From Siphonodentalium dalli (taxonomy: Eukaryota > Mollusca > Scaphopoda > Gadilida > Siphonodentaliidae): a DNA stretch of 64,000 nucleotides. Of the stretch, positions 1,201-36,778 are shown piece by piece (the stretch's first letter is position 1; each line of letters opens with the position of its first letter). The notes under the pieces are model-generated. The model did not search any database and was not told where the DNA came from. It saw only the letters and a program-made list of their open reading frames with translations. Made by a program: the position numbers and the translations under genes. The stretch spans positions 237,570,609 to 237,634,608 of the forward strand of contig CP136061.1 of assembly GCA_032622095.1 (NCBI GenBank). Reading direction: 5' to 3'.

Positions 1201-1201
1201 T

Positions 1202-14701: not shown

Positions 14702-14968
14702 TTAACCAAGGGTTAAACTGTTTAGTATATATAGAATATATACGGATAGTATGTCTGAAAAACAAATTACACCATGAGTGAGATTGCCGGTCTACACCAC
14801 GATCCATGGTGAGTGCATGGGGTAGACTGGAACTCTCAAGAGTGGGGTAAATTATAAAATGATTATTTATAAACACTTGTAATCGCCATAAAACGTGACG
14901 AGAGCCCCCATTATTTTACTCCCGTTTGCACCCTCACGTGCCTGTAACTCGCTGAAGTTCACGCGCAT
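14702..14968 (+). repeat. Second copy of the dispersed repeat at 10,083-10,362
   Basis: Similar along its whole length to 10,083-10,362 with small indels, ending at TTCACGCGCA. It lies 22 bases before the direct repeat that flanks the giant composite element. Confidence 0.7.
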
Positions 14969-14990: not shown

Positions 14991-14999
14991 GTGAATTTG
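14991..14999 (+). other. Left target-site duplication of the giant composite element
   Basis: GTGAATTTG, identical to 36770-36778. These nine bases abut the matching inverted ends of the 21.8-kb unit. Confidence 0.8.
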
Positions 15000-17159
15000 C
15001 GGTCCTACTAAAACCCGACCGCACCCGACCGCACCCGACCGCATCCCGACCGGACCCGACCGCACCCGACCGGACCGCCCCCAGGGGTCCGAGCGAGATG
15101 GGGTTTGCACTATCGTGTAGAATGGACCCGAATGTACCAAAGTTCCAATCCCCAAGTCGATAGCTCGAGCGGTCACGGCACTGTTAACCCCTGACTGGCG
15201 GCCGTTTCCGCCAGGTACGGGAAATCCGAAAAGGCGCCGACCGCACCTCCCCTGACTGCCTGACCACGGAAATGGACATTATATCATGAAGTGAATACCC
15301 ATATGCATCCATGGGCGATCGGACAAGTCGCTAGCTGCAGCGGAAGTGAATAAATTTACCCATACGGCTGCTGCCGAATTCGCTATAAATGTACGCAAAA
15401 ACGCCGAAATTAACACCCGCCGACTGGACCGCCCCTATGGGTCCGAGCGAGATGGGGTTTGCAACTATCGTGTTGAATGGACCCGAATGTACCATAGTTC
15501 CAATCCCCAAGTCGATAGATCGAGCGGTCACGGCACTGTTAACCCCCTGACTGGCGGCCGTTTCCGCCAGGTACGGGAAATCCGAAAAGGCGCCGACCGC
15601 ACCTCCCCTGACTGCCTGACCACGGAAATGGACATTATATCATGAAGTGAATACCCTAATGCATCCATGGGCGATCGGACAAGACGCTAGCTGCAGCGGA
15701 AGTGAATAAATTAACCCATACGCTGCTGCCGAATTCGCTATAAAATGTACGCAAAAATGCCGAAATTACACCCGCCGACCGGACCGCCCCTATGGGTCGT
15801 CGATCGTGATGGGGTTTGCACTATCGTGTAGAATGGACCCGAATGTACCAAAGTTTCCAATCCCCAAGTCGATAGCTCGAGCGGTCACGGCACTGTTAAC
15901 CCCTGACTGGCGGCCGTTTCCCGCCAGGTACGGAAATCCGAAAAGGCGCCGAACCGCACCTCCCCTTGACTGCCAGACCACGGAAATGGACATTATATCA
16001 TGAAGTGAATACCCATATGCATCCATGGGCGATCGGACAAGTCGCTAGCTGCAGCGGAAGTGAATAAATTAACCCATACGCTGCTGCCGAATTCGCTATA
16101 AATGTACGCAAAAACGCCGAAATTAACACCCGCCGACTGGACCGCCCCTATGGGTCCGAGCGAGATGGGGTTTGCACTATCGTGTTGAATGGACCCGAAT
16201 GTACCATAGTTCCAATCCAAAGTCGATAGATCGAGCGGTCACGGCACTGTTAACCCCTGACTGGGCGGCCGTTTCCGCCAGGTACGGGAAATCCGAAAAG
16301 GCGCCGACCGCACCTCCCCTGACTGCCTGACCACGGAAATGGACATTATATCATGAAGTGAATACCCATATGCATCCATGGGCGATCGGACAAGTCGCTA
16401 GCTGCAGCGGAAGTGAATAAATTAACCCATACGCTGCTGCCGAATTCGCTATAAATGTACGCAAAAACGCCGAAATTAACACCCGCCGACTGGACCGCCC
16501 CTATGGGTCCGAGCGAGATGGGGTTTGCACTATCGTGTTGAATGGACCCGAATGTACCATAGTTCCAATCCCCAAGTCGATAGATCGAGCGGTCACGGCA
16601 CTGTTAACACCTGACTGGCGGCCGTTTCCGCCAGGTACGGGAAATCCGAAAAGGCGCCGACCGCACCTCCCCTGACTGCCTGACCACGGAAATGGACATT
16701 ATATCATGAAGTGAATACCCATATGCATCCATGGGAGACGCTAGCTGCAGCGGAAGTGAATAAATTAACCCATACGCTGCTGCCGAATTCGCTATAAATG
16801 TACGCAAAAATGCCGAAATTAACACCCGCCGACCGGACCGCCCCTATGGGTCCGATCGTGATGGGGTTTGCACTATCGTGTAGAATGGACCCGAATGTAC
16901 CAAAGTTCCAATCCCCAAGTCGATAGCTCGAGCGGTCACGGCACTGTTAACCCCTGACTGGCGGCCGTTTCCGCCAGGTACGGGAAATCCGAAAAGGCGC
17001 CGACCGCACCTCCCCTGACTGCCTGACCACGGAAATGGACATTATATCATGAAGTGAATACCCATATGCATCCATGGGCGATCGGACAAGTCGCTAGCTG
17101 CAGCGGAAGTGAATAAATTAACCCATACGCTGCTGCCGAATTCGCTATAAATGTACGCA
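15000..17159 (-). repeat. Left TIR: 353-bp satellite array (about 6 units)
   Basis: Tip of 10-bp CCCGACCGCA-like repeats (15014-15085), then about six GC-rich monomers of 353-357 bp, ending abruptly after GTACGCAAAA at 17159. Each monomer contains a 7-bp-stem hairpin CTGGCGGCCGTTTCCGCCAG (first at 15195-15214) and a TATAAA motif. This array is inverted relative to 31,900-36,769. Frames inside shift because the period is not a multiple of three. Confidence 0.93.
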
Positions 17160-17770
17160 AAAGCGGTTATGTCCACTTACCTCACCGTTACATATCCATA
17201 AAAATAGTCCACATGACAGTTAATCCTTATATTTATATACATTTAGCGAAAAAGCCGCTTTTGTAAATATATTTAAATCGAAAAGTGTATCGTGACAAGA
17301 TCAGCCCAAAATACCCAATAGCACCCTTGGCAAAAGTTAATAGGAACAATTTCTCTTCATGTTGAAACCCGATGATGTATTAAGTCAATCCTGCGCGAGT
17401 CAAAATGCGCCCAAAGCATTACGCGTTCGTCTTTCCAAACCTAATGACGTATCGATGGTGTTATTAGCTTGGTGTTATGATGCGTTACGCATTCACCGAG
17501 AAATAACTGCAACTAGCCACGTGGGCGCCGACCAATCAGAATGCTGGATTTAGTGATGACAACACTTAGTGTGTAAATATATGTATTTGATCATCAGGAG
17601 GCATGACTTGGAATAGTAAACAGGGAAGTGAAAAAAGAACTCAATGCGGAAGTGAAACGTCTGATACATTCACCAGAGTATTGCGCGCGCATAAAAATTC
17701 ACCGATAACTTTGGAAATAGTGTTACTCCGTGACGTCACATTGTCCCGGTAATTCCAGGATTATAATGTG
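17160..17770. other. Gene-free interval inside the giant element
   Basis: AT-rich sequence between the left satellite and element B. A 64-codon frame (17,359-17,553) has no recognisable features. Its last four bases, TGTG (17767-17770), are the left target duplication of element B. Confidence 0.5.
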
Positions 17771-18521
17771 TGTGCCAAGACAACCACAGGGACATAACTT
17801 TCAACCTGGGAAGAAGATAGGAAATCTCTGTCAGAGGGGCGCTCGATTACCAAACATATCAGCGTCGCTGTTGACCACATATAGATCACAAAAGTACTGA
17901 GCACCAAATCGAATTAGCGAGCGTCCATGCAATAACATAGGGAAATGATTTGTGGAGTAAACAGAACACGGTCTTGAGGATTAGCAAGACCAGATGTATC
18001 GCCTAGAAAGCTACTGAAACCAGGAGAGTTAATAGGACCCATGGGGAGATGACGATAACTCAATTACCCTAAGTACGATGAACCGACGCGCCGTGAAAAT
18101 ACACATGGCCGTCATTAGCAGACACTGGGTATTTTAGGAAGAAGCAAGCAAACATGAGAAGACAGTTCTAACCAGCTACCCGATAGTAACAACGAATTAT
18201 CGGACGCCAGAGAAAAGCAGCTAGAAAGATGGATGAAGATACAAGGTAAACACGATGATCTTGTGATCCTAACAACATCTCACTGATGCGCCGGCGGAAG
18301 AAGAACATGAGACGACAGGAAGATAAACTCAACCGGAACTCAACCGAGTAGAAGACAAGCAGATACATCCAACCTATGAAGACGGAAGAAGATCCCAACC
18401 CAAGCAGACGACAGGAAGAGAAACCCAGATACCGATGATTGAACATTATTGACTTTGTTATATATAAATAATCAAACCGTTCTGATAGCCTTAAGAGTTA
18501 TATGTACCCGTATTGGCACAT
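17771..18521 (+). repeat. 5' LTR of element B
   Basis: Direct repeat of 22798-23547 with TGTGCCAA...TTGGCACA ends. A TATATATAAATA stretch near 18,457-18,470 is a possible promoter TATA. The 92-codon minus-strand frame occurs in both LTRs by duplication only. Confidence 0.95.
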
Positions 18522-18532
18522 ATCTCTTAACT

Positions 18533-18552
18533 GGTGCCTTCGAGCCAGGATC
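18533..18552 (+). other. Primer-binding site of element B
   Basis: TGGTGCCTTCGAGCCAGGAT begins 11 bases after the LTR. With two small insertions it resembles the complement of a tyrosine-tRNA 3' end (TGGTCCTTCGAGCC...). The tRNA assignment is tentative. Confidence 0.55.
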
Positions 18553-18657
18553 TGAACGCTAATCACAGACACAACGTGAAACCAGAAGAGGAACAGTGTG
18601 AAAAAAAAACAGTGTGGGAAAATTCGCAAAACGTGAGTCTAATTGTTTATTATCATA

Positions 18658-19749
18658 ATGGCTACCCAACAACAACAACAATCAGTTGGTGTTCTCGCCC
18701 CATTAACAGAGTCTATCAATTCTCAAATTGCTGCAATGGCCATGACTACGGTGACACAGGTAGTGACGTCATTTGACGGGGACCCCACGAAATACCACGG
18801 GTGGGTCAAGTCGATAGAAAAATGCGCGATCCTAACCGGCGCTAACGAAGCAAAGAAGCCCTACATGGCATTCCAGAGCGCGACGGGCCCCGTATCAGAT
18901 TTTTTACAAAGATATTTGGCCACGAATGCTAACGCCACATGGCAAGACACAAAAACCGAATTATCTAGTCGATTTGCCGAGATAAATGACATTCAATTCG
19001 CCTTTTCGATGCTAAGAAAAATCAAGCAAAAACAAAACGAAAATTTACATGTGCTTGCCGAACGAATTTTGGAGATCGCGACGGTGGCATACCGAGAGCA
19101 AATCGGCGGGATCAACGCGGTTGAAGGCCAACTCGTAGGGTTTTATATTGACGCTTTAAGAAGCGACAGTTTGAAAATGAAGTTGATCAGGGATGCGCCG
19201 AAGACACTAAAATTGGCAGCCGACATCGCCATGCGGGAAATGGGGATCCGACGGGTATTCAACCTACGAACGGGCCGCGAAAATTACAACGAAAACGAAC
19301 CGGAAGCAATGGAAATCGATAGTTTCAGAAACAAACGCGCGAGAACAACCTGCGATGTGTGCCCAAGCGATAATCACACGACCCGAGAACACAGATCACG
19401 CCCGAGACAGGTGCATGTCGATGCGGTGGTTAAACCACGAACGGTCGAATGTTGGACGTGTCAAGGTGATCATTTCGCTCGCGACTGCCCCTTTAAGACC
19501 GAAAACCGGAGGCACGTATCTTGCTGGGTTTGCGAAGGTAACCACTTAGCTAGAAATTGCCCCTCCAAATCCGGAAGTTCGAAGCAAAATCAATGGAACG
19601 CGCCGGTAACGCCACCTAGGGGAATCCGCCGAGATCAGCCGAACCGATCACGTGACATATCCCATGATACACCGCGACACAGCCGGAGATATCCGACATT
19701 AAACGAACCGCCACGAATGATGACCCCGCCCACATATGCAAAAAACTAA
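18658..19749 (+). CDS. gag: Gag polyprotein of element B (363 aa)
   Basis: Capsid/nucleocapsid precursor of element B. The chosen start is ATG 18658 (MATQQQQQ); the frame itself is open slightly further upstream. Residues about 38-200 carry a retrotransposon-Gag region with FDGDPTKYHGWV, a WQDTKTEL stretch and a long helical segment. The nucleocapsid part has three knuckles. The first is irregular: C232, C235, H240, H245, with His where Cys is expected. The other two are C265/C268/H272/C277 and C289/C292/H296/C301, both CX2CX3HX4C as in element A. A basic, proline-rich end follows. The frame stops at TAA 19747-19749, directly after a slippery heptamer. It is intact, which is what a trans-mobilised but still packaged element would need. 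Confidence 0.9.
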   Translation: MATQQQQQSVGVLAPLTESINSQIAAMAMTTVTQVVTSFDGDPTKYHGWVKSIEKCAILTGANEAKKPYMAFQSATGPVSDFLQRYLATNANATWQDTKTELSSRFAEINDIQFAFSMLRKIKQKQNENLHVLAERILEIATVAYREQIGGINAVEGQLVGFYIDALRSDSLKMKLIRDAPKTLKLAADIAMREMGIRRVFNLRTGRENYNENEPEAMEIDSFRNKRARTTCDVCPSDNHTTREHRSRPRQVHVDAVVKPRTVECWTCQGDHFARDCPFKTENRRHVSCWVCEGNHLARNCPSKSGSSKQNQWNAPVTPPRGIRRDQPNRSRDISHDTPRHSRRYPTLNEPPRMMTPPTYAKN

Positions 19750-19782
19750 GGAATCCTCTCATTGAGGCCACAAATGGGAGGA
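19740..19782 (+). promoter_or_regulatory. Programmed -1 ribosomal frameshift signal, gag-pol of element B
   Basis: A AAA AAC (19740-19746) is in the gag register and abuts the TAA stop. After a 7-nt spacer comes a 10-bp stem, 19754-19763 with 19773-19782 (TCCTCTCATT / AATGGGAGGA, one G-U pair), closing a 9-nt loop. The -1 frame is open across the site and continues into the protease. Confidence 0.85.
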
Positions 19783-21308
19783 AATATAACATAAATATTG
19801 TAGGGAACCCCAGCTCCTGTTTAGTTAGAATAGGTAAAAATAAATATCGCTCATTAGTGGATAGTGGAGCGGAAGTATCATTGATTCACAAACGCGTCTA
19901 TGACGCATTACAGTTCCGACCAAAACTAACTAGGGAACATATCAACCTTAGCTCCGTGAATGGGAAGTCACTGGGCGTACTTGGTAGCGTGGAACTGACC
20001 TTCAGAATGGCGAAACTAAAATTAACCCATAAATTTTATGTGGCGAATGATATGACCCGGAATATGATCTTGGGGAGGGATTGGTTGACCTCTCGGGGGG
20101 TCAGACTATATTATGATCTGGGATGCCTCAAGGTCAGTGACGTGTACGTCCCATTGGAATCGGACGCGCACATAGCTTCCCTGCTGAGATTGACCAGCAA
20201 GGTTAGCTTAAAGCCTCAAACATCAACTTTATGTATGGGAAAATCAAAAAACTTAGCTTCTCTTCGCAAGTCGACATTAGTAGAGGTGGCCCAAATCAAG
20301 AAAGGTTACCTAGCATCAAAACCCGGTTTGGAGGTAAGGAATTCGATTTCGGAACTAGGTAAAAGACATCAAGTCCCATTGCTACTTGTGAACAACACTA
20401 ATAAAACCGTTTATCTACGGCGCGGCAGTGTAGTTGGAAAATCAGTCACGTATGGACGAAGACGCAATCGTGCTGGGAAAGGTTATTGTCAAATAACATT
20501 ACAGCAACAGCCTAAATCAGTTATGATGGTACACAAACACGTGAAACAGGCGAAACGCCAACAAGCAGCGAAATTTAACAAAAAGGCCACAGACACCAAA
20601 TTCGAGATTGGCGAGGCCGTCTATGTGAAGAATCATTTACGAAAAAGCAAACTTGAAAGCAAATGGAAACTTTACTTCCGCATAACCAAGCAAATAACGC
20701 CCGTTACTTTCGAGTTAAGGAATCAATTAACTGGGAAAGTCACACAATCCCATGCTGAACATATGCGCAAAGCCAACCTTGAATGGGAAATCCCCAAAAC
20801 TGACAACAACAAGCGTGCTCAAACGTATGTTGTTCCCCCCGAAGACGAAGATAGCGACGTTCCTGCCCCTAACCCTGAGGGTGGGTCTTCTGGCGATGAA
20901 ACAGAACCATTACCAGATGATGTAATCGCTCGATATCGGAGACAATGTTCGGACTCCGATTACGAAGATGTCCCTTTAAGCGAGCTTAAGATGCGCTTAC
21001 ATCGTAGGAAAACGCAACTCGCGCGCTCAGAGCCGCTACAAAACCCTGACTCGTCCATGGACGAGAGACCAGAGCCGAGTGCCAAGGCACGACGCGCTCC
21101 AGCGCCTCGTCGACACGGGCGCAAAGTAACAAAGATGTTTACGAGTGAGGACAGCTCAGAGGATGAGTTAATGGAAGTGGCCGCCATTGAACAAAACCCT
21201 CGTGAGGCCCCACGCAAGTGTAAGCAGCTCATGAATGGAGCGCTTAGTGACATAAGAACCAAGCAATCATTTAAAAACCTGTTGTACTCAATGGCAGCAG
21301 TGATGTAA
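19746..21308 (+). CDS. Shortened Pol of element B: protease fused to integrase C-terminal tail
   Basis: Entered by -1 frameshift; the first codon after slippage is 19746. An aspartic protease comes first, with DSGAEVSL at 19860 and ILGRDWL about 65 codons later. Near 20,430-20,530 the sequence passes without a stop into a segment typical of what follows the integrase core: a basic AKRQQAAKFNKK stretch, then FEIGEAVYVKNHL and a region ending HAEHMRKANL. A roughly 165-residue acidic and Arg-rich tail follows. No YxDD reverse transcriptase, RNase H or DD35E core is present. For comparison, the equivalent portion of element A is about three times longer. The deletion kept the frame, so about 520 residues are still encoded, starting at the slip site. 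Confidence 0.85.
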   Translation, partial: LRNPLIEATNGRKYNINIVGNPSSCLVRIGKNKYRSLVDSGAEVSLIHKRVYDALQFRPKLTREHINLSSVNGKSLGVLGSVELTFRMAKLKLTHKFYVANDMTRNMILGRDWLTSRGVRLYYDLGCLKVSDVYVPLESDAHIASLLRLTSKVSLKPQTSTLCMGKSKNLASLRKSTLVEVAQIKKGYLASKPGLEVRNSISELGKRHQVPLLLVNNTNKTVYLRRGSVVGKSVTYGRRRNRAGKGYCQITLQQQPKSVMMVHKHVKQAKRQQAAKFNKKATDTKFEIGEAVYVKNHLRKSKLESKWKLYFRITKQITPVTFELRNQLTGKVTQSHAEHMRKANLEWEIPKTDNNKRAQTYVVPPEDEDSDVPAPNPEGGSSGDETEPLPDDVIARYRRQCSDSDYEDVPLSELKMRLHRRKTQLARSEPLQNPDSSMDERPEPSAKARRAPAPRRHGRKVTKMFTSEDSSEDELMEVAAIEQNPREAPRKCKQLMNGALSDIRTKQSFKNLLYSMAAVM

Positions 21309-21702
21309 ATAATAATGAAACGCCCGAACTATTTACCTGGATTTCATTTCGGAATGAATGAGACCCCACTTTTAACTGTCTTATTGATGACTGATGAGTC
21401 TAACCTGGCTTCGTAAATGTTGAAAATAGTTAGCCCGACGCCCCAGACCGAATCGCGAATAAATAGTCATGTTCGGATCAATGACAGGTCGCGCGCCCCA
21501 TGAAACCCGGCACGTGCGCATGGCGATTTAATAAATAAAGCTTTGAACTTTACAATCACGCGCCGAGAGATAACGAGCACCGCGCCGACGTGCACGCCGC
21601 CACCCTTAGGGTTACTGCGTTTAAGCGCACCCCGCTCAAATAAACACGATCGAAAATATGCTCACGACTGACTTAGTGAACAAAAAAGTATTACCCCAAT
21701 GA
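21309..21702 (+). other. Intergenic segment of element B
   Basis: No frame. Overlapping AATAAA hexamers at 21530-21539 could act as polyadenylation signals for a shorter transcript. Confidence 0.4.
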
Positions 21703-21993
21703 ATGGTAGAGATGGCCATGGTAGTATTTTGCCCTAGTAACGTAGTTACAGTAGTAATTTTCATTATCTTGACCCACCGATTCTGGTGGAAATTTGTTAA
21801 ACATCAGTTGCCAAGGTTAGCCATTATGTATAGTAAGCAGTTAGACCAGCGACCTGAGGATATCCTGAATGCCGTGTTCAAAGAACCCATCGACGAAGCA
21901 ATGGAGACGGATGCACCAAAGCCGTCTGCGCTATTCCGGGACAACACTCAGGAACGCCTACATGTATATCCAATTATAGCCGTCAGAGGCTGA
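21703..21993 (+). CDS. Small single-pass membrane protein frame in element B (96 aa)
   Basis: The ATG start is at 21703. Residues about 6-24 are strongly hydrophobic, followed by aromatic and basic residues (HRFWWKFVKH), which reads as a membrane anchor with a cytosolic tail. The tail is acidic toward its C-terminus. Lying downstream of pol, in the position of env in some gypsy-type elements, it could be the residue of a third gene or one exon of it. I recognise no family. No signal-peptide cleavage site or glycoprotein features are visible. Confidence 0.45.
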   Translation: MVEMAMVVFCPSNVVTVVIFIILTHRFWWKFVKHQLPRLAIMYSKQLDQRPEDILNAVFKEPIDEAMETDAPKPSALFRDNTQERLHVYPIIAVRG

Positions 21994-22458
21994 CCACATC
22001 TGTGGCGGATTTGGATTAGTATTAATTATGTATCGTATATTAATGTATTCCGAATTTCCTCCGTAATTATTGTTGCGCGGATATCAGAATCATTCGCATG
22101 TATATAGACATTTATGCATTTCATATATTTCAAATATTAATTGTTGCATAACGATGTCCAGGGTATTATAGTTGTATAATCATCAGAATGATTATAGCAA
22201 GCGTTGAATAGGGACTATAAATCCCGACATTCAGTCATACGTTTTGATAATTGAAATCAATCACCCCGACTTATCTTGTGTTTAAACTGTTCGTCAACAA
22301 ATCCATCTATATAATTAGTTGTAAATTCCATTTTCGTATTGGGCCGATCTGACGACCCTCAAGCGATACCGATAAATTGGAAAATTAACCATTGTGTATT
22401 CTGACTGTGTCATTTGTTCTCAAACCTCACACAAATATCCGTTTGAGTATTACAGGCT

Positions 22459-22776
22459 GACCATGGCGGTGGAACAAGGGTCGACCAGTTGTCAGAACCT
22501 ACCCCATACTCGGACATTGAGGACGAAAATACCTCGACATCCGATGATGACGAAAATGACGACGCCATGAAATTTCAATCATAGTTTTACACCGAAAGAG
22601 TCACAGCCAGTGGGTCGGAGTTGTCTGAGAGACGCCCAGACGACCCGATCTACACGGAGACGACCGACATCGAACCAGCTATCCATCGCCGATGCCGCTG
22701 TTGCGAAACACTTCGACGAATCATCGACCTGCTGCGCAGCGACGAATTGGACTTGCGATTTCAAGATCAACTTTAA
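22459..22776 (+). pseudogene. Acidic downstream frame of element B, broken by one TAG
   Basis: One reading frame is open for 106 codons except for a TAG at 22582-22584. The first half is Asp/Glu/Ser-rich. The second has a CRCC cluster followed by a helical-looking LRRIIDLLRSDELDL stretch and stops at TAA 22774, just before the purine tract. A splice-acceptor-like TATTACAG ends at 22455. It is in the same phase class as the membrane frame at 21703, so the two may once have been one spliced product. Function unknown. Confidence 0.4.
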
Positions 22777-22779
22777 ATC

Positions 22780-22797
22780 GAAAAAGTGAAGGAGTAA
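22780..22797 (+). other. Polypurine tract of element B
   Basis: GAAAAAGTGAAGGAGTAA directly precedes the TGTGCCAA start of the 3' LTR. One T interrupts the otherwise purine run near each end. Confidence 0.75.
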
Positions 22798-23547
22798 TGT
22801 GCCAAGACAACCACAGGGACATAACTTTCAACCTGGGAAGAAGATAGGAAATCTCTGTCAGAGGGGCGCTCGATTACCAAACATATCAGCGTCGCTGTTG
22901 ACCACATATAGATCACAAAAGTACTGAGCACCAAATCGAATTAGCGAGCGTCCATGCAATAACATAGGGAAATGATTTGTGGAGTAAACAGAACACGGTC
23001 TTGAGGATTAGCAAGACCAGATGTATCGCCTAGAAAGCTACTGAAACCAGGAGAGTTAATAGGACCCATGGGGAGATGACGATAACTCAATTACCCTAAG
23101 TACGATGAACCGACGCGCCGTGAAAATACACATGGCCGTCATTAGCAGACACTGGGTATTTTAGGAAGAAGCAAGCAAACATGAGAAGACAGTTCTAACC
23201 AGCTACCCGATAGTAACAACGAATTATCGGACGCCAGAGAAAAGCAGCTAGAAAGATGGATGAAGATACAAGGTAAACACGATGATCTTGTGATCCTAAC
23301 AACATCTCACTGATGCGCCGGCGGAAGAAGAACATGAGACGACAGGAAGATAAACTCAACCGGAACTCAACCGAGTAGAAGACAAGCAGATACATCCAAC
23401 CTATGAAGACGGAAGAAGATCCCAACCCAAGCAGACGACAGGAAGAGAAACCCAGATACCGATGATTGAACATTATTGACTTTGTTATATATAAATAATC
23501 AAACCGTTCTGATAGCCTTAAGAGTTATATGTACCCGTATTGGCACA
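22798..23547 (+). repeat. 3' LTR of element B
   Basis: Same as the 5' LTR except CCGTTCTG here against CCGTTTCTG there. TGTG follows. Confidence 0.95.
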
Positions 23548-24621
23548 TGTGACAGCTTTTGTTCAATCAGAAATAGTGTTAGTTATATAAAGGATGGATA
23601 ATAAAACATATTATTGATCAACCGTAACCTGCATATATATCAAAAGATAACTAGTATTAAATCGTGCCATATGTAAAGTATCCAAATATATTAATTGCGT
23701 ATTGAATCAGATGATGTTTTGATAACAATCAGCTCTATGTGTAAATTAGTCTCTGATCATCAAGAGATTAGTTGGCTTCAGAAAAGAGTGACACATATTA
23801 AGCTGACTGGGGATTATAACAGTGCACGTCGTGTAATGATGTGGGAGCCTTCACCTAGGTTATTTCTCTCCAATAATACTTGTTTATGCGTGCATAGTTG
23901 TATTTATTGTAGGAGTGCATCATTTTCTTCATGGTTGCAATGGTGTCGCAACACGATGGACTTGCGCACACATGTCGCCAATACATCACCTTTGTTCCCG
24001 CCGAATGTTGGTGTGGAACAAATATTGTTTTCTAAGCACCCCCCCCCCCCACACACACACACGTTGAACTGAACATAATGCGTCGTAACAACCATCATAT
24101 ATGTAATGTGTTAATTGGAATATAATAATGATATTGCATAATTGAATGAGTTGAGTTGAGTTATTTTTTCTTTAATGCACATGTCTTTATTTCCTCTTTG
24201 GTTGTGATAAAGAAATCATTATGAATTGTTTAACCCCAGCCGTCTTTGTGTCGTTTCCCCAAGCTACAATGTGATTTAGTGATAAAGATGGATATAAAAT
24301 TCGTCGCAAATCAATCAGATTCAATACTCAATTTATTAACCTCGTCCACTAAATTAGATTCGAGCCCCGATTGATAAATCTCGACTTTAAATGGAATTTA
24401 TTGCAATCGGCCAATATATTTCGTATAGTTTCGAGTTATTGATATCGGCATGCCAGTCGTCAATACAAAATTTAGTTGGCTACTGGAGAGTAAATGTGTT
24501 GTTCAGAAATAAATATTCGTTTCTCCGTTCGATACGGTTACTGGAATCCATATAGCTACCCGTACCGCAACACGTGTTGCAACCACAAACTGTTTTACAG
24601 GAATAATTCAGCGCATCGACT
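23548..24621. other. Gene-free interval inside the giant element
   Basis: AT-rich sequence with no convincing gene. A C run followed by (AC)n lies near 24,039-24,062. A 125-codon frame (23,695-24,072) starts with TTG and runs into that simple repeat, so it is not called. Confidence 0.5.
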
Positions 24622-25800
24622 GTAGTGCAGCGGCCAAACGCCAAAAGTGGTCGGGTACCCCTACCCACGGTAGAACAAGTTAAAACCAACTTTTTTTTAA
24701 GGAGAAATATATACTGTTGACGAAAATGATAGTGAAAAATAACGGAATTGGTGGTGGCTATTGTCAAATTGACGATGAGCGATACCCACCAGTGACTTTT
24801 TCCAGAAATTAACGATTTTGGTAAAGTGAGCCATGCGGCTATATCCTAAGTTATTTGCCCACATTATTGGTGTTAAAATTACTATAGCATACCATATCTA
24901 TACCTGATATGCAAAAAGTGTTGGTTAATTCAGATTTTCCTGCCATTTGGAGCCGAAACATTTATTTTTTGTTGAAAAATCGCTCTTTTTCACAAAAATA
25001 ATGTTTTTCAAACATTATCTTTCAAACGGATATTGCAATAATGCTGAAATATTTAGTCCATATGGTGTACTAATAATCTGACAAGCATATGAAGAATGAA
25101 GTTAACATAAATTTTGAACGGTTTGCGAGATATTGGATTTTAGCTACCCCTCCCCCAAACACGTTTTTGGTCGAAAAAATACATATGTTTGATAACGACA
25201 TTACAAACATTTTCTAATTGATCTGAATGGGACCCAATATGAATGTTGTACTGAAAGTTTTGTCCAGAGATACCGTTTAATTGATTACAGATGTGTTCAG
25301 GCTTTCAGACCCCCAGTTACAACAACAACAATTATTTGATTGATAACAGGTAATTTTGCATGCATTAACATCGATGTTAAGTACTAAAACCTTTGTTATA
25401 AACAACACGTGGCCAATATAATTCATATGGCTCAGCAGTTATCTGGACATCACAAGTAGAAAGAATTTGACAGAAATTGTGAACGGTTTTCCAAATATTG
25501 GAATTAGGTACCGCTCCCCCCGGACGCGATTTGGTAAAAAAAAATACCTATTTATGATAACGACAACACAGACCTTTCTAAATGATTCTAATGGGCATTT
25601 AATCATGATTCGTGTGATGAAAACCTGATCCGTAGACACCGTGAGCGTGGTTGTAGATGTCCTCAGGTTTCCAAACCCCCAGTTACAACAACAACAAACA
25701 TTTTATTTATAACATGTAATATTATATCAACACATATCGACTTTGAGGAACTAAAGTATTTGTTCTAAACGACAAATAATATAGACTAACATAGGGTTTA

Positions 25801-26316
25801 CAGTCAAGTGATACCCGAGTCAAGTGATACCATACAAAATGATACCCTAATATGTCAACTGATACCCAAGATGGCCGAGTCATCTGATACCTTTTTGAGT
25901 CAAATGGTACCTTTTATCAAAAACGTTGATTTAGATACATTTGACCTCAAAAATACCTGCACCAATAACTCGGTAATTTTGAGTATCATTTGACCAATTT
26001 TGCAAGCAAAAACATGTTACACACAGTTGTTCCCGGCTGTCGCAGAAACCGAGACAAGTGATACCCAATTCCGAGTCCAGTGATAACCAAGACAAGTGAT
26101 ACCCAATTCCGAGTCAAATGTTCTAATTAGGACAATATGACACTCAACACATAAACATTTGACAAGAGAAATTATTATTGCACTTAAAATTCAAAGGTAC
26201 CATTTGTCTCAGGAAGGTATCAGTTGACTCGAAAAGAAGGTATCAGTTGACTCGAGATTAGGTATCACTTGACTTTTTTCGTTGAGTATCAGTTGGTTTG
26301 GGTATCACTTGTCCTG
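25801..26316. repeat. Foldback MITE built from a GATACC motif
   Basis: A motif close to GAGTCAAGTGATACCC is repeated about nine times forward between 25,801 and 26,110, with variants. It then appears inverted (GGTATCAGTTGACTC) about six times from 26,197 to 26,316. The ends read CAGTCAAGTGATACC and GGTATCACTTGTCCTG. The single strand would fold into many alternative hairpins. No frame or clear target duplication. Confidence 0.7.
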
Positions 26317-26459
26317 CACCCAACATGGCTATAATCATACAGAACAAAACCATTGTTGCTTCCATAGTGATTGTTAGAGTCCCTTTAAATCGACCAAATT
26401 TTAGAAACAATGGATATTGTATTTTATATCTCATAAACTAGTTTGACCAAGGTGGAAGC

Positions 26460-29260
26460 GTTAGTTCAAATATGTTCTATGTTTTGAGCCCCCATCCCCT
26501 GCCCTATTAGAAGCCTTGAACACACCACGGACTGAAAGAATATGATCTCAATATTAAGAATCATATAACTACAAAGGACAGTTACATAAGGAAATACACA
26601 GTGTTTATTGATGGGTTTGTTCCCGAAATAGTGTGGCACTTTACAAAACGAGGCTGCGTGGTAAATATGAAGGGCGAATTTTCTATTTTTTCGAGAACAC
26701 TCTACCCGATTTAAAGACTTGAACACAATACGAAATGAAGCTATATGCTCTCTATATTAACTGAGAGTGTGACTGGAATGTAGTACTATCAGAGAATACA
26801 TAATTTGTATGGATGGGTTGTGCCTGTGTCGCTTTACACAAAGTGGCTGATAAATATAAGAAAGACGAATTTGCTATGTTTTGAGGACCCCCTTACACAA
26901 TTGAAGTGTTAAAGTTGAACAAACCACGAACTGAAATGATTGCTGTAAATATTGACTGAGGATGTGGGCAAAGGATAGTAATATCGGGACATACATCATG
27001 TTGATGGATGGGTTGGTTGGTTCCCTAAAGCCTTTAGTACTTTATAAAAATCGGATGGCAAACGCCAAAGGCGAATATTTTTTGTGTGTGTGACCACTTT
27101 ATAAGCCCATTTAAACTCTTGAACACACCATGCGACGAATATATATGCTTTTATTATTAACTCACAGTGTGAACGAAAGGTAGTGCTATCAGGGAACATA
27201 CAATTTATATGGATAGTTTAGTTCCCACTATCCTAGGGTACTTTACAAAAGCCGGCTGGCAATTACCAAAGCTGAATATTTTCTTTGAGCACCATACCCC
27301 ATTTAAAGTCTTAAACACACCAATGGATGGATATGTTCTCAATATTAACTGAGGTGTGGACAAATGGTAGGTAATTCAGGAAATATACATCTTCAGTGGG
27401 TGGGTTGGTTTCCGAATGTCTGTGACACTTTACAAAAAGTGGCTAGCAAAGAGAAAGGTGAATTTTCACTGTTTTGGGTACCCATAACCCTTCTAAACTC
27501 TTCAGCGCACACTGAACCGAATCTATATACTCTCAATATTAACTGAGTGTGTGAAAGAAATGTAGTGCTGTCGTGTATTATGTACAATTTGTGTGAGTGG
27601 TGTGGTTCCCGAAATCCTGGAGCACTTTACAAAAGGCAGCTGGCAAATACGAAATATGATTTTTTTTGTTTTGAGGCCACACTACCCCATTTGAAGTCTT
27701 GAACACACAATGAACCGAACGGATATACTCCCAATATTAACTGCGTGTGTAGAGAAATGGACGCTATATCAAGAGTATGGTATATCAGGGTCTTGAATGT
27801 CTGGGTCACTTTACAAAAAGCTGTTGGTGAAAGATAAAGGCGAATACTCACTGTTTGGGGGACCCCATTAACCCATTTAATATCTTGATCACAACATGAA
27901 CTGAAGTTATATTCTCTCATACTTAGCTGAGTCTGTGATCGAATGGTATTGCTATCGTGGAATTATTAATTGATATGTGTGATTTGGTTCCCCCGAAATC
28001 CTGGAACACTTTACAAAAAGCGGCTGGCAAACACGAAATGCGAATTGTCTATGTTTTGAGGACCCCACTATCCCACTTGAAGTCTTAAACAAATGATATG
28101 CTCTCAATGTTAACTGAAGTTGTGGAAAAATGGGAGTATTATCTGGAAATACGAATATGTTATGGATGAGATGGTTCCCGAAAGCCTATGGCACTTTACA
28201 ACAAGCGGCTGGCAAACGAAAGGGCTAAATTTGACTGTCTCAGGGGACTCCAATCCCTATTTGAAGTCTTGAACACACCACTAGCTCAAGGCATATGCTA
28301 TCAATATCACCCGAGATTGTGGCCGAATGGCTGTTCTGTCAGAAAATATGCAATGCTCTCGCCAGCCCACCGTTCGCGAAAACACCGTGGCACCTTACAC
28401 AAAGCAGATGACAAACGATGATGGCGAATTTTAAGGGACCCCTACCCCATGTAAACAATTGAAGCTACCACGAACTGAATGGATGTGCCCTCAATGTCAA
28501 ACGACGATCTGGACAAACGGCTATTCTATCAAGAAATACACAATTGTTATAGATGGGTTGGTACCCGACAATCAGGGACACTTTACAAAAAGCGACTGGA
28601 AAATAAATAATGAGATTTTTCAATGTTTGTATTACCCCCTTCCCAATTTGAAGACTAGAACCCACCACGAACTGGAACGATATCATCATTGACTGAGTGT
28701 TTGGACCATGGGGCGTTAGTTGTACAAGGACGTACACAATATAAATAGATGGGATTGGGTTCAGAAAGCATGAGCTCTTAACGAAAAGTGGCTGGAAAAT
28801 AAGAAAGGCAAAATTATGAGGACCCCTACTTTATTTGAAGTCTTGGAAGACACCACATGGTGAAATGATATGACCTCAATATTAACTGAGGGCTTGACCA
28901 AAGGTTAGTTTTTATCAGGATATACATATGTGTTGGTTCCCGAAAGTCTGCATCATGTGGCACTCCACAACAAGCGGATGGCAAATGTTCAGTTTGATGT
29001 ACCCCTACCCTATTTGAAGTCTTGAACACATCATGTACTGAATGGATTATAATTTCAATATCAACATATATTGTGGCCGATATTGTGCGATATATAAGGC
29101 TGTATTGGTTTCCGACAGAATGTGACACTTTACAAAAAGCGGTTGGCACCCAGTTTATACGATATATAAGGCTGTATTAGTTTCCGACAGCATGTGACAC
29201 TTTACAAAAAAAGCGGCTGGCAAATGACACAAATTCAATTTTAACTGTTTATGTGACAAT
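26460..29260. repeat. Degenerate satellite array of about 190-bp units (about 14 copies)
   Basis: A CACTTTACAAAAAGCGGCTGG-like core recurs at about 26,637, 26,830, 27,038, 27,238, 27,425, 27,620, 27,808, 28,007, 28,191, 28,392, 28,580, 28,780, 28,960 and 29,126. Each is followed by GACCCC..CCC.TTTGAAGTCTTGAACACACC and TCAATATTAACTGAG variants. The array is much more diverged than the 353-bp satellite. Confidence 0.85.
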
Positions 29261-30630
29261 TACGCTATTTTAGGTCATGAAAACACCACGAACTCGATGG
29301 ACATGCTTCTAGTTTTAACTGAGTCTGTGGACATAGGGTAGTTCTATCAGCAGGTAAACAATTTATCTGGGAGAGAGAGACTGTATGGGAAAAGTTAGGA
29401 TGTAATCCAGTTGGAGCTGATTGGATACAATGATATACACATAGTTTCGTTGGAGCTGATTGGACACAATGATACACAGATAATGTTGTTTGCGTCATTG
29501 ATACGTCCGTCGCCGTGAGATTACAGACGATCTGGTGGGGTTAATTTCGCGCTCAGCAGGGTTTCAATGCTTTTCGCGAAGTTTTAACAAATGACAGCGT
29601 TATGAAAATCGCTTTGTTTTCGAGATACATGTTTGAACCCCGTCAACTATTTTAATATTTTCGCGATGACTGAGTTTCTGAGTATTTCTGATAAAATGAC
29701 ATTCGGTATGGCGCATAGAAGTTCAGTCCTAGGACCACTGTATTCACGACATTCCAATAAGTAATGCTATGCTGTTTCTATTTGGCCACAATGACAGCGA
29801 GGGGACATTTTAATGTGATTACTCAATAGGTCATAGTTCTGCATTTCAATCTTAAGCGAGAATGGAGTACTTGTGATATGCGACACTTACTGTATGTAAT
29901 AGCAAATAAAATGGGTTGTTGTTGTAATTTGGTGTCTGGAAGCCCGAACACGTCTTTAATCACTTAAGTAATATCCCCGGGCTCAATTTTCAGCAAACGA
30001 ATTATGTTGGGTCCCATTATGATCAATTGGGAAATTTGGTAAAGTTCTGAACAAAAATATGTAATTTTTCGACCAAAAACGTGTTTGGGGGAGGGGTAGC
30101 TAAAATCCATTATTTCGCAAATCGTTCTAAATTTCTGTTAACTTCTTAGTGGATATGCTTGGCAGATAACTACTTCACCATAGGGATTAAATATTTCGGC
30201 ATTATAGCAATATCCATTTGAATGATAAAGTTTGCAAAATAATATTTTTTTGAAAAAGTGCGATTTTTCAGCAAAAAATAAATATTTCGGCTCCAAATGG
30301 CAGGAAAATCTAAATTAACCAACATTTGTTTCATATCAGGTAGAGGTATGGTATGATATAGTAATTTTAACCCCAACAATGTTGGCAAATAGGTTATGAC
30401 ATAGCCACAGGGCTCGCTTTACCAAAATCGTTAATTTCTGGAAAAAGTCACTGGTGGGTATCGCTCATCGTCGATTTGACAATAGCCACCACCAATTCCG
30501 TTATTTTTCACTATCATTTTCGTCAACAGTATATATTTCTCCTTCAAAAACAGTTGGTTTTAACTTGTTCTACCGTGGGTAGGGGTATCTCGAAAACTAG
30601 AGCTCTTTTTCGATTTGGCCGCTGCACTAC

Positions 30631-31899
30631 TGGTATAGTGTGAGCAAATTGAAAAAACATTGATATATGGTGCAGACAAATTGTTAATCGCATTCGCTTT
30701 ATTGGCAGATATACGTATCGTTATGGATTATTGGACAATTTAAAATTAAATGGCTGACATGTTGGCAACATTTCAAACAATTGGATTTTACAAATAATTT
30801 CATAGACTATTCGAATGTTGGATTTTCCAGACTGAGAAAATAGGTTATGATTGCTCGAACATACAATTCCGTTAGCTAGCTTGTCCAATCAATATTCGAC
30901 TCGCTCAAAATCATTCGTACAAAAAGATTTTTGGTGTCATGCTTTACTATACTATCAGATAATACCAAACATCATAACTATAAATTCGCGAATAACGGAG
31001 AAACAAACAGTAGTTATCTAAACTGCATTAGCAACTTTCCGTTAGTATATATCAACCTTAAAATATAAATCAAATTGTTCCCTTACCTTCGGCTTCACCG
31101 TCGCAAACAGAACATGGATATATGACCATAACTGGTAGAACTCGTGGTGGTCGCATTATGATAAAATCAAGATGTCGATTTGACACAATTTAGAAAGTAA
31201 CCATTTTATATATCAATGCAACTATATCATTGGTTCATTCCATTGGTTGCAAATTACATTCGACTGGGTTTCTTGCCATGTACACGAAGCCATCATGCAT
31301 CTCAATTGTCCCACGGATGAGGCCAAGGTTCATAATCCGATTTTAAAATCTCTTAATCTGATCATGTTTTAAATCCCAATTAATTCGCACGATCGTATAA
31401 CTACTGTCGAAACCAATTCCTATAAAAACACGTACAATTGATACATGTACATTATTCATGATTATTTATTGTAACGAAAACAGCCAAAAGTAAATCGGAC
31501 GAGAACTCGAAGTAAATTAGTTAATCACTGGACTGATAATCACAAGGGATTCACCAAAATAAATAAATTAATTGAATTTAAGTCCGTGGTGACGAATGTG
31601 ACACCTCGCTATAATCCATACACAATGTCACATGCAGTGCTTTGAATAGCTTACCACTTTAAGTCACTACACATGCGACTATCATGACCTGAACCATGTT
31701 GATTTATAATAAATAAACATGGGGTTACCCCCCCCCCCCCACATTCACATATTCAGTTGTTTTATAATTAATTTTTGCATGTACCATAAAGAAAATTATC
31801 CGGGTCTCATACATATGTGTTTCAATTGATATGTTATCACTCACCTCGTATACGTTTTCGAATATCGGTGTTGATCTAGCAGGACCAGAATACACTCTT
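30631..31899. other. Gene-free interval inside the giant element
   Basis: AT-rich, with a C run at 31,730-31,740. Nothing recognisable until the satellite begins. Confidence 0.5.
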
Positions 31900-34800
31900 C
31901 GCTGCATGATATGATGTCCATTTCCGTGGTCGTGCAACCAGGGAAGATGCGGTTTGTGCCTTTTTGGATTTCGCGTACCCGTGGAACCGGTCGCAAATTA
32001 GCGGTTAACAGTGCCATATCCACCCGAGCTATCGACTTGGGGGTTGGAACTATGGTCCATTCGGGTCCATTCTACACGTTAGTGCAAACCCCATCACGCT
32101 CGGACTCATAGGAGCGGTCCGGTCGGCGGGTGTTAATTTCGGCATTTTTGCGTACATTTATAGCGAATTCGGCAGCAGCGTATGGGTTAATTTATTCACT
32201 TCCGCTGCAGCTAGCGACTTGTCCGATCGCCCATGGATGCATATGGATATTCACTTCATGATATAATGTCCATTTCCGTGGTCAGGCAGTCAGGGGAGGT
32301 GCGGTCGGCGCCTTTTCGGATTTCCCGTACCTGGCGGAAACGGCCGCCAGTCAGGGGTTAACAGTGTCGTGACCGCTCGAGCTATCGACTTGGGGATTGG
32401 AACTTTGGTACATTCGGGTCCATTCTACACGATAGTGCAAACCCCATCTCGCTCGGACCCCTGGGGGCGGTCCGGTCGGCGGGTGTTAATTTCGTCGTTT
32501 TTGCGTACATTTATAGCGAATTCGGCAGCAGCGTATGGGTTTATTTATTCACTTCCGCTGCAGCTAGCGACTTGTCCGATCGCCCATGGATGCATAGGGG
32601 TATTCACTTCATGATATAATGTCCATTTCCGTGGTCAGGCAGTCAGGGGAGGTGCGGTCGGCGCCTTTTCGGATTTCCCGTACCTGGCGGAAACGGCCGC
32701 CAGTCAGGGGTTAACAGTGCCGTGACCGCTCGAGCTATCGACTTGGGGATTGGAACTTTGGTACATTCGGGTCCATTCTACACGATAGTGCAAACCCCAT
32801 CTCGCTCGGACCCCTGGGGGCGGTCCGGTCGGCGGGTGTTAATTTCGTCGTTTTTGCGTACATTTATAGCGAATTCGGCAGCAGCGTATGGGTTTATTTA
32901 TTCACTTCCGCTGCAGCTAGCGACTTGTCCGATCGCCCATGGATGCATAGGGGTATTCACTTCATGATATAATGTCCATTTCCGTGGTTAGGCAGTCAGG
33001 GGAGGTGCGGTCGGCGCCTTTTCGGATTTCCCGTACCTGGCGGAAACGGCCGCCAGTCAGGGGTTAACAGTGCCGTGACCGCTCGAGCTATCGACTTGGG
33101 GATTGGAACTTTGGTACATTCGGGTCCATTCTACACGATAGTGCAAACCCCATCTCGCTCGGACCCCTGGGGCGGTCCGGTCGGCGGGTGTTAATTTCGT
33201 CGTTTTTGCGTACATTTATAGCGAATTCGGCAGCAGCGTATGGGTTAATTTATTCACTCCCGCTGCAGCTAGCGACTTGTCCGATCGCCCATGGATGCAT
33301 ATGGGTATTCACTTCATGATATAATGTCCATTTCCGTGGTCAGGCAGTCAGGGGAGGTGCGGTCGGCGCCTTTTTGGATTTCCCGTACCTGGCGGAAACG
33401 GCCGCCAGTCAGGGGTTAACAGTGCCGTGACCGCTCGATCTATCGACTTGGGGATTGGAACTATGGTACATTCGGGTCCATTCTACACGATAGTGCATAC
33501 CCCATCACGCTCGGACCCACAGGGGCGGTCCGGTCGGCGGGTGTTAATTTCGGCGTTTTTGCGTACATTTATAGCGAATTCGGCAGCAGCGTATGGGTTA
33601 ATTTATTCACTCCCGCTGCAGCTAGCGACTTGTCCGATCGCCCATGGATGCATAGGGGTATTCACTTCATGATATAATGTCCATTTCCGTGGTCAGGCAG
33701 TCAGGGGAGGTGCGGTCGGCGCCTTTTTGGATTTCCCGTACCTGGCGGAAACGGCCGCCAGTCAGGGGTTAACAGTGCCGTGACCGCTCGATCTATCGAC
33801 TTGGGGATTGGAACTATGGTACATTCGGGTCCATTCTACACGATAGTGCATACCCCATCACGCTCGGACCCACAGGGGCGGTCCGGTCGGCGGGTGTTAA
33901 TTTCGGCGTTTTTGCGTACATTTATAGCGAATTCGGCAGCAGCGTATGGGTTAATTTATTCACTTACGCTGCAGCTAGCGACTTGTCCGATTCCCCATGG
34001 ATGCATAGGGGTATTCACTTCATGATATAATGTCCATTTCCGTGGTCAGGCAGTCAGGGGAGGTGCGGTCGGCGCCTTTTTTGGATTTCCCGTACCTGGC
34101 GGAAACGGCCGCCAGTCAGGGGTTAACAGTGCCGTGACCGCTCGAGCTATCGACTTGGGGATTGGAACTTTGGTACATTCGGGTCCATTCTACACGATAG
34201 TGCAAACCCCATCTCGCTCGGACCCCTGGGGGCGGTCCGGTCGGCGGGTGTTAATTTCGTCGTTTTTGCGTACATTTATAGCGAATTCGGCAGCAGCGTA
34301 TGGGTTAATTTATTCACTCCCGCTGCAGCTAGCGACTTGTCCGATCGCCCATGGATGCATAGGGGTATTCACTTCATGATATAATGTCCATTTCCGTGGT
34401 CAGGCAGTCAGGGGAGGTGCGGTCGGCGCCTTTTTGGATTTCCCGTACCTGGCGGAAACGGCCGCCAGTCAGGGGTTAACAGTGCCGTAACCGCTCGATC
34501 TATCGACTTGGGGATTGGAACAATGGTACATTCGGGTCCATTCTACACGATAGTGCATACCCCATCACGCTCGGACCCACAGGGGCGGTCCGGTCGGCGG
34601 GTGTTAATTTCGGCGTTTTTGCGTACATTTATAGCGAATTCGGCAGCAGCGTATGGGTTAATTTATTCACTTACGCTGCAGCTAGCGACTTGTCCGATCG
34701 CCCATGGATGCATAGGGGTATTCACTTCATGATATATGTCCATTTCCGTGGTCAGGCAGTCAGGGGAGGTGCGATCGGCGCCTTTTTGGATTTCCCGTAC

Positions 34801-36769
34801 CTGGCGGAAACGGCCGCCAGTCAGGGGTTAACAGTGCCGTGACCGCTCGATCTATCGACTTGGGGATTGGAACTATGGTACATTCGGGTCCATTCTACAC
34901 GTTAGTGCAAACCCTATCACGCTTGGATCCATAGGGGCGGTCCGGTCGGCGGGTGTTAATTTCGGCATTTTTGCGTACATTTATAGCGAATTCGGCAGCA
35001 GCGTATGGGTTAATTTATTCACTTCCGCTGCAGCTAGCGACTTGTCCGATCGCCCATGGATGCATAGGGGTATTCACTTCATGATATAATGTCCATTTCC
35101 GTGGTCAGGCAGTCAGGGGAGGTGCGGTCGGCGCCTTTTTGGATTTCCCGTACCTGGCGGAAACGGCCGCCAGTCAGGGGTTAACAGTGCCGTGACCGCT
35201 CGAGCTATCGACTTGGGGATTGGAACTATGGTACATTCGGGTCCATTCTACACGATAGTGCATACCCCATCACGCTCGGACCCACAGGGGCGGTCCGGTC
35301 GGCGGGTGTTAATTTCGGCGTTTTTGCGTACATTTATAGCGAATTCGGCAGCAGCGTATGGGTTAATTTATTCACTTCCGCTGCAGCTAGCGACTTGTCC
35401 GATCGCCCATGGATGCATATGGGTATTCACTTCATGATATAAAGTCCATTTCCGTGGTCAGGCAGTCAGGGGAGGTGCGGTCGGCGCCTTTTTGGATTTC
35501 TCGTACCTGGCGGAAACGGCCGCCAGTCAGGGGTTAACAGTGCCGTGACCGCTCGAGCTATCGACTTGGGGATTGGAACTATGGTACATTCGGGTCCATT
35601 CTACACGATAGTGCATACCCCATCACGCTCGGACCCACAGGGGCGGTCCGGTCGGCGGGTGTTAATTTCGGCGTTTTTGCGTACATTTATAGCGAATTCG
35701 GCAGCAGCGTATGGGTTAATTTATTCACTTCCGCTGCAGCTAGCGACTTGTCCGATCGCCCATGGATGCATATGGGTATTCACTTCATGATATAAAGTCC
35801 ATTTCCGTGGTCAGGCAGTCAGGGGAGGTGCGGTCGGCGCCTTTTTGGATTTCTCGTACCTGGCGGAAACGGCCGCCAGTCAGGGGTTAACAGTGCCGTG
35901 ACCGCTCGAGCTATCGACTTGGGGATTGGAACTTTGGTACATTCGGGTCCATTCTACACGATAGTGCAAACCCCATCTCGCTCGGACCCCTGGGGGCGGT
36001 CCGGTCGGCGGGTGTTAATTTCGTCGTTTTTGCGTACATTTATAGCGAATTCGGCAGCAGCGTATGGGTTTATTTATTCACTTCCGCTGCAGCTAGCGAC
36101 TTGTCCGATCGCCCATGGATGCATAGGGGTATTCACTTCATGATATAATGTCCATTTCCGTGGTCAGGCAGTCAGGGGAGGTGCGGTCGGCGCCTTTTTG
36201 GATTTCCCGTACCTGGCGGAAACGGCCGCCAGTCAGGGGTTAACAGTGCCGTGACCGCTCGAGCTATCGACTTGGGGATTGGAACTATGGTACATTCGGG
36301 TCCATTCTACACGATAGTGCATACCCCATCACGCTCGGACCCACAGGGGCGGTCCGGTCGGCGGGTGTTAATTTCGGCGTTTTTGCGTACATTTATAGCG
36401 AATTCGGCAGCAGCGTATGGGTTAATTTATTCACTTCCGCTGCAGCTAGCGACTTGTCCGATCGCCCATGGATGCATATGGGTATTCACTTCATGATATA
36501 AAGTCCATTTCCGTGGTCAGGCAGTCAGGGGAGGTGCGGTCGGCGCCTTTTTGGATTTCTCGTACCTGGCGGAAACGGCCGCCAGTCAGGGGTTAACAGT
36601 GCCGTGACCGCTCGAGCTATCGACTTGGGGATTGGAACTTTGGTACATTCGGGTCCATTCTACACGATAGTGCAAACCCCATCTCGCTCGGACCCCTGGG
36701 GGCGGTCCGGTCGGGTGCGGTCGGGTCCGGTCGGGTGCGGTCGGGTGCGGTCGGGTTTTAGTAGGACCC
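31900..36769 (+). repeat. Right TIR: 353-bp satellite array (about 14 units)
   Basis: Monomers recur at about 32,369, 32,722, 33,075, 33,427, 33,780, 34,134, 34,487, 34,840, 35,192, 35,545, 35,898, 36,251 and 36,604. The innermost unit (near 31,900-32,250) is clearly more diverged. Two subtypes alternate: A (AACTTTGGTAC, CCCCTGGGGGCGG) and B (AACTATGGTAC, CCCACAGGGGCGG). The tip after 36,700 turns into 10-bp TCGGGTGCGG repeats and ends TTTTAGTAGGACCC. The recurring 81-codon frame starts with GTG and is a by-product of repetition. Confidence 0.94.
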
Positions 36770-36778
36770 GTGAATTTG
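36770..36778 (+). other. Right target-site duplication of the giant composite element
   Basis: GTGAATTTG, identical to 14991-14999. Confidence 0.8.

Follow-up and report, generated by a model that had tools for sequence, protein, structure and literature searches.

Satellite arrays as terminal inverted repeats of a likely Mutator-type transposon in the scaphopod Siphonodentalium dalli

The sequence considered here (the window) is a 64,000-nucleotide stretch of the scaphopod mollusc Siphonodentalium dalli (assembly GCA_032622095.1, contig CP136061.1), corresponding to C1:237570609-237634608 in the 2.23-Gb host genome of 9 contigs. It contains a 21.8-kb block bounded by inverted arrays of a 353-bp satellite, which is in all likelihood a member of a transposon family of high copy number, likely of Mutator type (MULE), with terminal inverted repeats composed of a short tip, 10-bp micro-repeats and the inverted 353-bp arrays. 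These elements are likely to make and spread satellite DNA. The origin of dispersed satellites is an old question, and the satellite described here is found almost solely as transposon arms in the part of the genome covered by the listed matches.

The element and its family in the host genome

The window copy is flanked by a perfect 9-bp target-site duplication, GTGAATTTG, at 14991-14999 and 36770-36778 on the + strand; these are the sole + strand copies of this 9-mer in the window, and a - strand copy occurs at 46893. A 20-bp tip, GGTCCTACTAAAACCCGACC, lies at 15001-15020, with its inverted copy at 36749-36768. A single base (C) separates tip and duplication on both sides, so the element spans 15000-36769, with a C-end on the left (C + GGTCCTACTAAAACCCGACC, 15000-15020, + strand) and a G-end on the right (36749-36769, - strand, reading inward GGGTCCTACT...). 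Adjoining the tips are the 10-bp micro-repeats (GCACCCGACC) at 15013-15076 (+) and 36704-36756 (-), followed by the two satellite arms: the left one (15066-17162, +) has 5.9 copies of the 353-bp monomer, the final one ending after 332 bp, and the right one (31898-36714, -) has 13.7 copies, the innermost being a divergent monomer of 227 bp with 83-85% identity to the rest. The two arms therefore share no common inner edge. They measure 2.2 and 4.9 kb, with a G+C content of 54% as against 36-39% in the flanks. Thus, the inverted tips, micro-repeats, opposed arrays and duplication described in an earlier sequence-only reading of this DNA are all present. That reading had also judged a chance 9-bp match at both tips unlikely, with which the numbers agree: the probability that an exact 9-mer match arises by chance in this register is 1.8e-5, and a random 9-mer match anywhere within 12 bp of both ends was obtained in 331 of 2,000,000 draws. 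No empty site was found inside the window, where the left flank (14492-14967) is a dispersed repeat whose paralogue match ends 23 bp before the duplication.

The tip, allowing up to 2 mismatches, occurs at 608 + 670 = 1,278 places in the host genome, compared with 1 + 0 for the reversed control. We defined a set of elements from the first 100 listed tip places (all of them exact, from C1 and a portion of C2) by pairing adjacent + and - tips separated by under 50 kb, and added L054 and L055, which have an extra + tip, and L066, recovered by following a single tip. This gave 32 distinct elements including the window copy, or 33 scored rows since L054 was tried with both of its left tips. Perfect duplications flank 25 of the 32 pairs, 23 of them 8 bp long and two, including that of the window, 9 bp long; the mismatched-flank control gave 0 in 1,056. 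Checking each pair for a duplication of its own, as had been suggested, thus supports the idea of a mobile unit. The family rule is an 8-bp duplication, of which the 9 bp in the window is a minority form. These lengths fall within the 8-11 bp (mostly 9 bp) typical of MULEs, with the mode at the short end. The 23 perfect 8-bp duplications (L032-L065) display a weak symmetric bias, with G or C at positions 1 and 8 in 19/23 and 17/23, T at position 2 in 12/23 and A at position 7 in 10/23. In all 33 rows a single + strand letter stands between duplication and tip at both ends, from which it follows that every listed element pairs a C-end with a G-end, a polarity most simply attributed to common descent.

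All 27 mapped elements start and finish with inverted satellite arms, whose outer parts have the same orientation relative to the tips in every case, and the stretch between the arms is between 1 bp and 14.7 kb long. Accordingly, 27/27 show the defining plan of foldback elements, in which long inverted repeats made up of tandem units surround a variable or absent middle. At one extreme L031, L038, L044 and L049 are near-pure foldbacks with at most 10 bp between the arms, and L043, L054 and L055 have an additional internal array; a third satellite array, on the + strand, is seen at C1:51553743-51559062 within the interior of a 29.6-kb element. The interiors of the mapped elements sort into a few common classes. 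L033 and L048 have opposite interior orientations despite equal end polarity, which would fit flips by recombination between the arms. Shared tips, a shared arm plan and duplications are marks of a transposable unit, and they support the earlier proposal of one of the Foldback/MULE kind with satellite ends.

A sister copy dates the nested insertions

A near-identical member, L047, is located at C1:240.34 Mb. It is 7.85 kb long, is flanked by the duplication GTCAGGGT, and its interior is 99.6-100% identical to three pieces of the window copy, namely 17163-17770 (100% across 605 bp aligned), 23547-24631 (99.6%) and 30638-31897 (99.6%). Between these pieces the window copy contains two insertions absent from L047: a long terminal repeat (LTR) retroelement at 17771-23546 (+), bordered by the 5-bp duplication ATGTG and represented in L047 by an intact empty site, and an inverted-repeat unit at 24632-30637, the ends of which are uncertain by about 12 bp, with arms at 24656-25329 and 29915-30587 (87% identity). 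As L047 has neither, both insertions must be younger than the common ancestor of the two copies. The LTRs of the retroelement are 751 bp long and identical; its frames encode gag and protease, followed by a weak match to an integrase C-terminal-like region, and neither a reverse transcriptase nor an integrase core was found in the two long frames scanned. It is thus probably non-autonomous, yet has identical LTRs. Outside the element, at 48827-49234 of the window, are diverged (70-82%) pieces of element interior that run near-continuously across the place where the nested unit is inserted.

More than half of the 21.8 kb is therefore nested material, and as judged from these alignments the moving unit was probably about 10 kb in size. 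The sequence-only reading had inferred that the whole of nearly 22 kb, with its resident LTR element and inverted-repeat unit, is or was a transposable unit. The perfect outer duplication in the window is compatible with a move of the whole as one block, as are five other listed members of 16.3-41.7 kb with perfect duplications, but the absence of both insertions from a copy that is otherwise 99.6-100% identical inside is most simply explained by nesting after insertion, and we regard the one-block move as unlikely. The enlarged window copy may have moved again later.

The two copies also differ in their arms. Oriented as in the window copy, the 9 right-arm monomers of L047 are colinear with the 14 of the window copy, four pairs being 100% identical, and the five extra monomers of the window copy lie in between the colinear ones. 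Hence, copies that are otherwise near-identical differ in their arms by entire monomers. Within the window copy, the outermost monomer of one arm is of the same type as that of the other (they differ by four substitutions and one indel), and the inner monomers are partly arm-specific (66/20,000 label permutations, with the innermost right monomer omitted).

A candidate transposase

The 9.58-kb member L045 contains three long frames between its arms: 1) a 195-residue frame with an OTU protease domain (E 1.3e-9); 2) a 551-residue frame with no Pfam match; and 3) a 411-residue frame matching the MULE transposase domain PF10551 (E 4.8e-6). IS256 is matched as well, but weakly (E 9.2e-5, with 21.6 bits for a cut-off of 150). 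By eye, candidate D-D-E residues lie at 91, 167 and 285 of the 411-residue frame, with a possible C..H motif at 188-191. A structure predicted from the single sequence reached a pLDDT (predicted local distance difference test) of 33.6 and was not used, and a search against solved structures gave no match. A copy of the gene 99% identical to that of L045 (C1:113964361-113965578) lies inside the tip pair 113940955/113978171, which delimits a 37-kb member with a perfect 8-bp duplication, satellite places across nearly 10 kb of its left arm, and a right arm that runs from 113967826 to at least 113972418. A MULE transposase gene is thus found between an element's own ends in both L045 and a second tip pair.

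Seven matches at 90% identity or more were recovered among the 101 scored of 1,442 candidates. Two of the seven are the copies just described; for four of the other five (91-99%) we placed 1.2-kb windows about 3 kb downstream before their sequence was seen. All four contained the 353-bp satellite in the expected orientation, and one also had the exact tip. Three other members, L050, L055 and L066, share the 3' end of the L045 interior. The window copy was probably moved by transposase made from such gene-carrying relatives.

The superfamilies P/Galileo, hAT and Merlin also produce 8-bp duplications, and one of them could in principle move the elements, with the MULE genes of L045 and the 37-kb copy as passengers. 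The usual duplication of 8 bp (23 of the 25 perfect listed cases) is in favour of this, 9 bp being the commonest length in the MULE table of PMC6446971, and passengers do occur, as in L055, the interior of which has reverse transcriptase frames. However, the transposase is 99% identical between the tips of two copies at separate sites, the satellite lies near four out of four further transposase copies, the end of the L045 interior is shared by three other members, and the foldback MULEs Tetris and Tm1 make 8-10-bp duplications (PMC4079207, PMC3169594). No THAP family, as expected of a P-type transposase, matched the three long L045 frames. A non-MULE mover is hence quite unlikely, and we retain a MULE transposase as the favoured agent.

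The satellite as a proposed multiplied terminal region

A 24-mer from the monomer occurs at 1,482 + 1,687 = 3,169 places in the genome (control 0 + 0). We classed the first 100 listed of these, all exact and located on C1 from 36 to 114 Mb: 89 fall within exact-tip pairs, nine lie within 5 kb inward of a single tip and two belong to neither class. In this listed part of the genome the satellite accordingly occurs almost only as transposon arms, and the suggestion that it spreads as the ends of transposable units gains from these 98 tip-linked places as well as from the arm plan common to all 27 elements.

The 353-bp unit is a decayed dimer, its halves aligning with a score of 23 where the maximum of 500 shuffles was -5. 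The micro-repeat motif CCGACCGSACC is present in both halves of the monomer consensus, with sites mostly 171 and 182 bp apart; with the first site set aside, a second match in the remainder of the monomer arose in 12 of 20,000 shuffles. A site has been lost from some of the monomers, mainly those of the left arm. Within the window 42 sites are found in the two arms and none in the 56,932 bp outside. Across 21 simple-armed elements of the 27 mapped (L038, L043, L046, L050, L054 and L055 being left out) there are 395 in the arms, all pointing to the nearer tip, whereas the interiors, 41,097 bp in all, have none. No match to the satellite or to the tip was obtained in prokaryote genomes, nor to the tip in viral contigs, and a protein search with the pseudo-frame of the satellite likewise gave no matches.

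These observations would be consistent with the following scheme. A MULE transposase would cut at the C- and G-ends, recognize and bind the reiterated CCGACCGSACC, and paste the element with an 8-9-bp stagger. Unequal exchange or slippage would add monomers to the arms and remove them, and more monomers may mean more binding sites. The satellite would then be a recognition region in many copies, carried along by the transposon and evolving inside it as an array; Tetris offers a model for arms growing into satellite (PMC4079207).

Conversely, the 353-bp repeat could be an ordinary genomic satellite into which the tips merely inserted or of which they captured pieces. The arm length varies, up to about 10 kb, as it might in such a case, and more distant transposase relatives (42-43% identical) are found in or beside a 205-bp array, on C2 with the array on both sides in direct orientation; moreover, the classed places are 100 of 3,169. 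Yet 98 of the 100 are tip-linked, the outer arms are uniformly oriented to the tips in all 27 elements, the outermost monomers of both window arms are of one type, and the tip micro-repeat motif occurs twice within the monomer consensus. On the places listed, we therefore consider an ordinary satellite unlikely.

Several points weigh against our reading of the block as a MULE copy with satellite ends. 1) Seven listed pairs are without a perfect duplication, matching at 7/8 (L042), 7/9 (L045), 6/8 (L035, L044 and L053) and 5/8 (L066), and not at all in L054; the imperfect duplication of L045 concerns the very copy whose gene was analysed. 2) One of five single tips followed for 10 kb gained a partner and four did not; beside one of the partnerless tips, C1:57538365, the inverted array is present with no listed tip there. 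3) The PF10551 match of L045 scores 27.4 bits, where the curated cut-off is 27.6, and the stretch that matches best spans positions 65-99 of 99 alone. 4) Three of the four windows placed blind are without a tip. 5) The window copy itself has no recognizable transposase: the best E-value against Pfam was 0.018, which is chance level, for 82 interior frames (78 of the 91 listed, the 13 omitted being among the shortest, plus four from 17117-17752). 6) In the left arms of L047 and the window copy (5 and 6 monomers) the order agrees at the outermost and innermost monomers alone. 7) The motif is the most conserved block of the half-monomer, but this is not significant by itself, as 3,046 of 20,000 column shuffles reach the peak.

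Finally, arrays are hard to assemble and a single assembly was available, but with paired tips at 32 loci, 25 of them perfectly duplicated, chance, inversion or assembly artefact is refuted for the family as the source of the inverted arrays.

Other transposase lineages and their satellites

As negative controls we took windows with an equal offset next to more diverged transposase copies (72%, 68% and 42% identity). These contained neither the 353-bp satellite nor the tip; instead they had other tandem arrays, with units of about 339, 517 and 205 bp respectively. L081, beside a 43% relative, also has the 205-bp array, and L082 (38%) has short irregular repeats alone. A 24-mer of the 339-bp satellite occurs at 490 + 494 places in the genome (control 0 + 0). 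The first 100 listed of these form 26 clusters, six on a single strand and 20 on two strands, and all 20 of the latter run strictly from + to -, as inverted arms would. Inside two of the clusters lie relatives of the transposase, with 65% and 78% identity to the protein of L045. The inverted clusters together with the enclosed transposases point to a second lineage which, judging from array orientation, very probably has the 339-bp satellite as arms of its own.

It may be, and we advance this tentatively as somewhat short of an even case, that a Mutator clade makes satellites: each transposase lineage would have its own unrelated satellite (353, 339 and perhaps 517 bp) as inverted arms, swapped as the transposase diverges, such that many dispersed satellites would be the arms of one clade, each unit being a multiplied recognition site selected for transposition. 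As a general rule this is opposed by the upstream windows beside the 72% and 68% relatives (L078, L079, L083 and L084), which have no such array, and the idea of one satellite per lineage loses further from the 72% relative at C1:120942147, near which there is no exact 339-bp place among the listed matches. We considered and rejected the idea that inverted arms accompany each of the relatives, as the 205-bp array flanks the 42% relative on both sides in direct orientation and the short repeats at L082 are irregular. The 42-43% relatives in or beside the 205-bp array (L081, at C5:248309494-248310593, and L077 and L080 on C2) perhaps represent insertions into that satellite. In L081 a 10-bp micro-repeat (CCGAACACAA) lies between the 205-bp array and the gene.

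Relation to known systems

Foldback MULEs with tandem-repeat ends are already known, the closest being Tetris and Tm1. Tetris of Drosophila virilis is a Foldback-like element assigned to Mutator by its authors (PMC4079207). Like the elements described here it has terminal inverted repeats with an outer domain and internal tandem repeats (of about 220 bp), and its repeat number varies between alleles, its repeats can expand into satellite arrays and its duplications are of 8-10 bp; its known copies are without coding capacity (PMC4079207). The present family differs in 1) its 353-bp unit and the presence of the tip motif in both monomer halves, a distinction drawn from the description of Tetris; 2) the transposase carried by relatives of 9.6 and 37 kb, with none found for Tetris; 3) the near confinement of the listed satellite places to elements, where the TIR-220 repeat of Tetris also forms long arrays; and 4) the probable existence of another lineage whose satellite is not the 353-bp one.

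The root-knot nematode element Tm1 (Mutator/Foldback) has inverted repeats of composite build that include short tandem units; its duplications are mostly of 9 bp, a second element is nested within it, and some copies have a MULE-like transposase (PMC3169594). Its two ends have unlike outermost motifs, as do those seen here, but its units are of 13-15 bp (PMC3169594), compared with 10-bp units and a 353-bp satellite tier in the present family. The MULE groups Rehavkus and Phantom make 9-bp or 8-10-bp duplications and have a minisatellite inside the element, described as preceding the 3' inverted repeat or following the transposase frame (PMC6446971), whereas here both arms are mutually inverted arrays. 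The PHD finger of the Rehavkus transposase had no match in the three long L045 frames. Galileo, of the P superfamily, has a P-type transposase with a THAP domain in contrast to the MULE domain found here.

What is new is the scale, the linked transposase and the reiterated tip motif, and probably the lineage-specific satellites; in the literature consulted, mostly titles and the starts of abstracts with few subscription journals, we recognized no description of lineage-specific satellite arms in a transposase-carrying MULE clade. The family is also a favourable one for study, as the sister copies display arm change by whole monomers, a likely transposase is in hand, and the probable second lineage constitutes a natural replicate.

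Other features of the window

A MULE transposase fragment (PF10551, E 2.9e-4, below the cut-off) is encoded at 11140-11553 (-), 3.4 kb outside the element, and had no database relatives in a protein search. Positions 1-9718 are occupied by a Ty3-type LTR element with 1.2-kb LTRs (1-1200 and 8520-9718) that are 98.9% identical, and with PNMA-like gag and pol frames. For an outer retroelement, the highest identities among named matches include Haliotis (61%), Pinctada (57-59%) and Mytilus (58%), and the best E-values are to fish and frog sequences at 41-49% identity. A long inverted-repeat unit (50721-52675 and 54883-56781, 89% identity) has internal tandem repeats of about 154 bp and, by eye, TAA on both flanks. 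Arrays of a 47-bp tandem repeat form three similar blocks at 60821-61520, 62283-62842 and 63605-64000. Near-palindromic units of 69 bp in both orientations are found at 38361-38577, 58029-58245 and 59340-59696, and lie partly within a 403-bp block that is duplicated at 98.5%.

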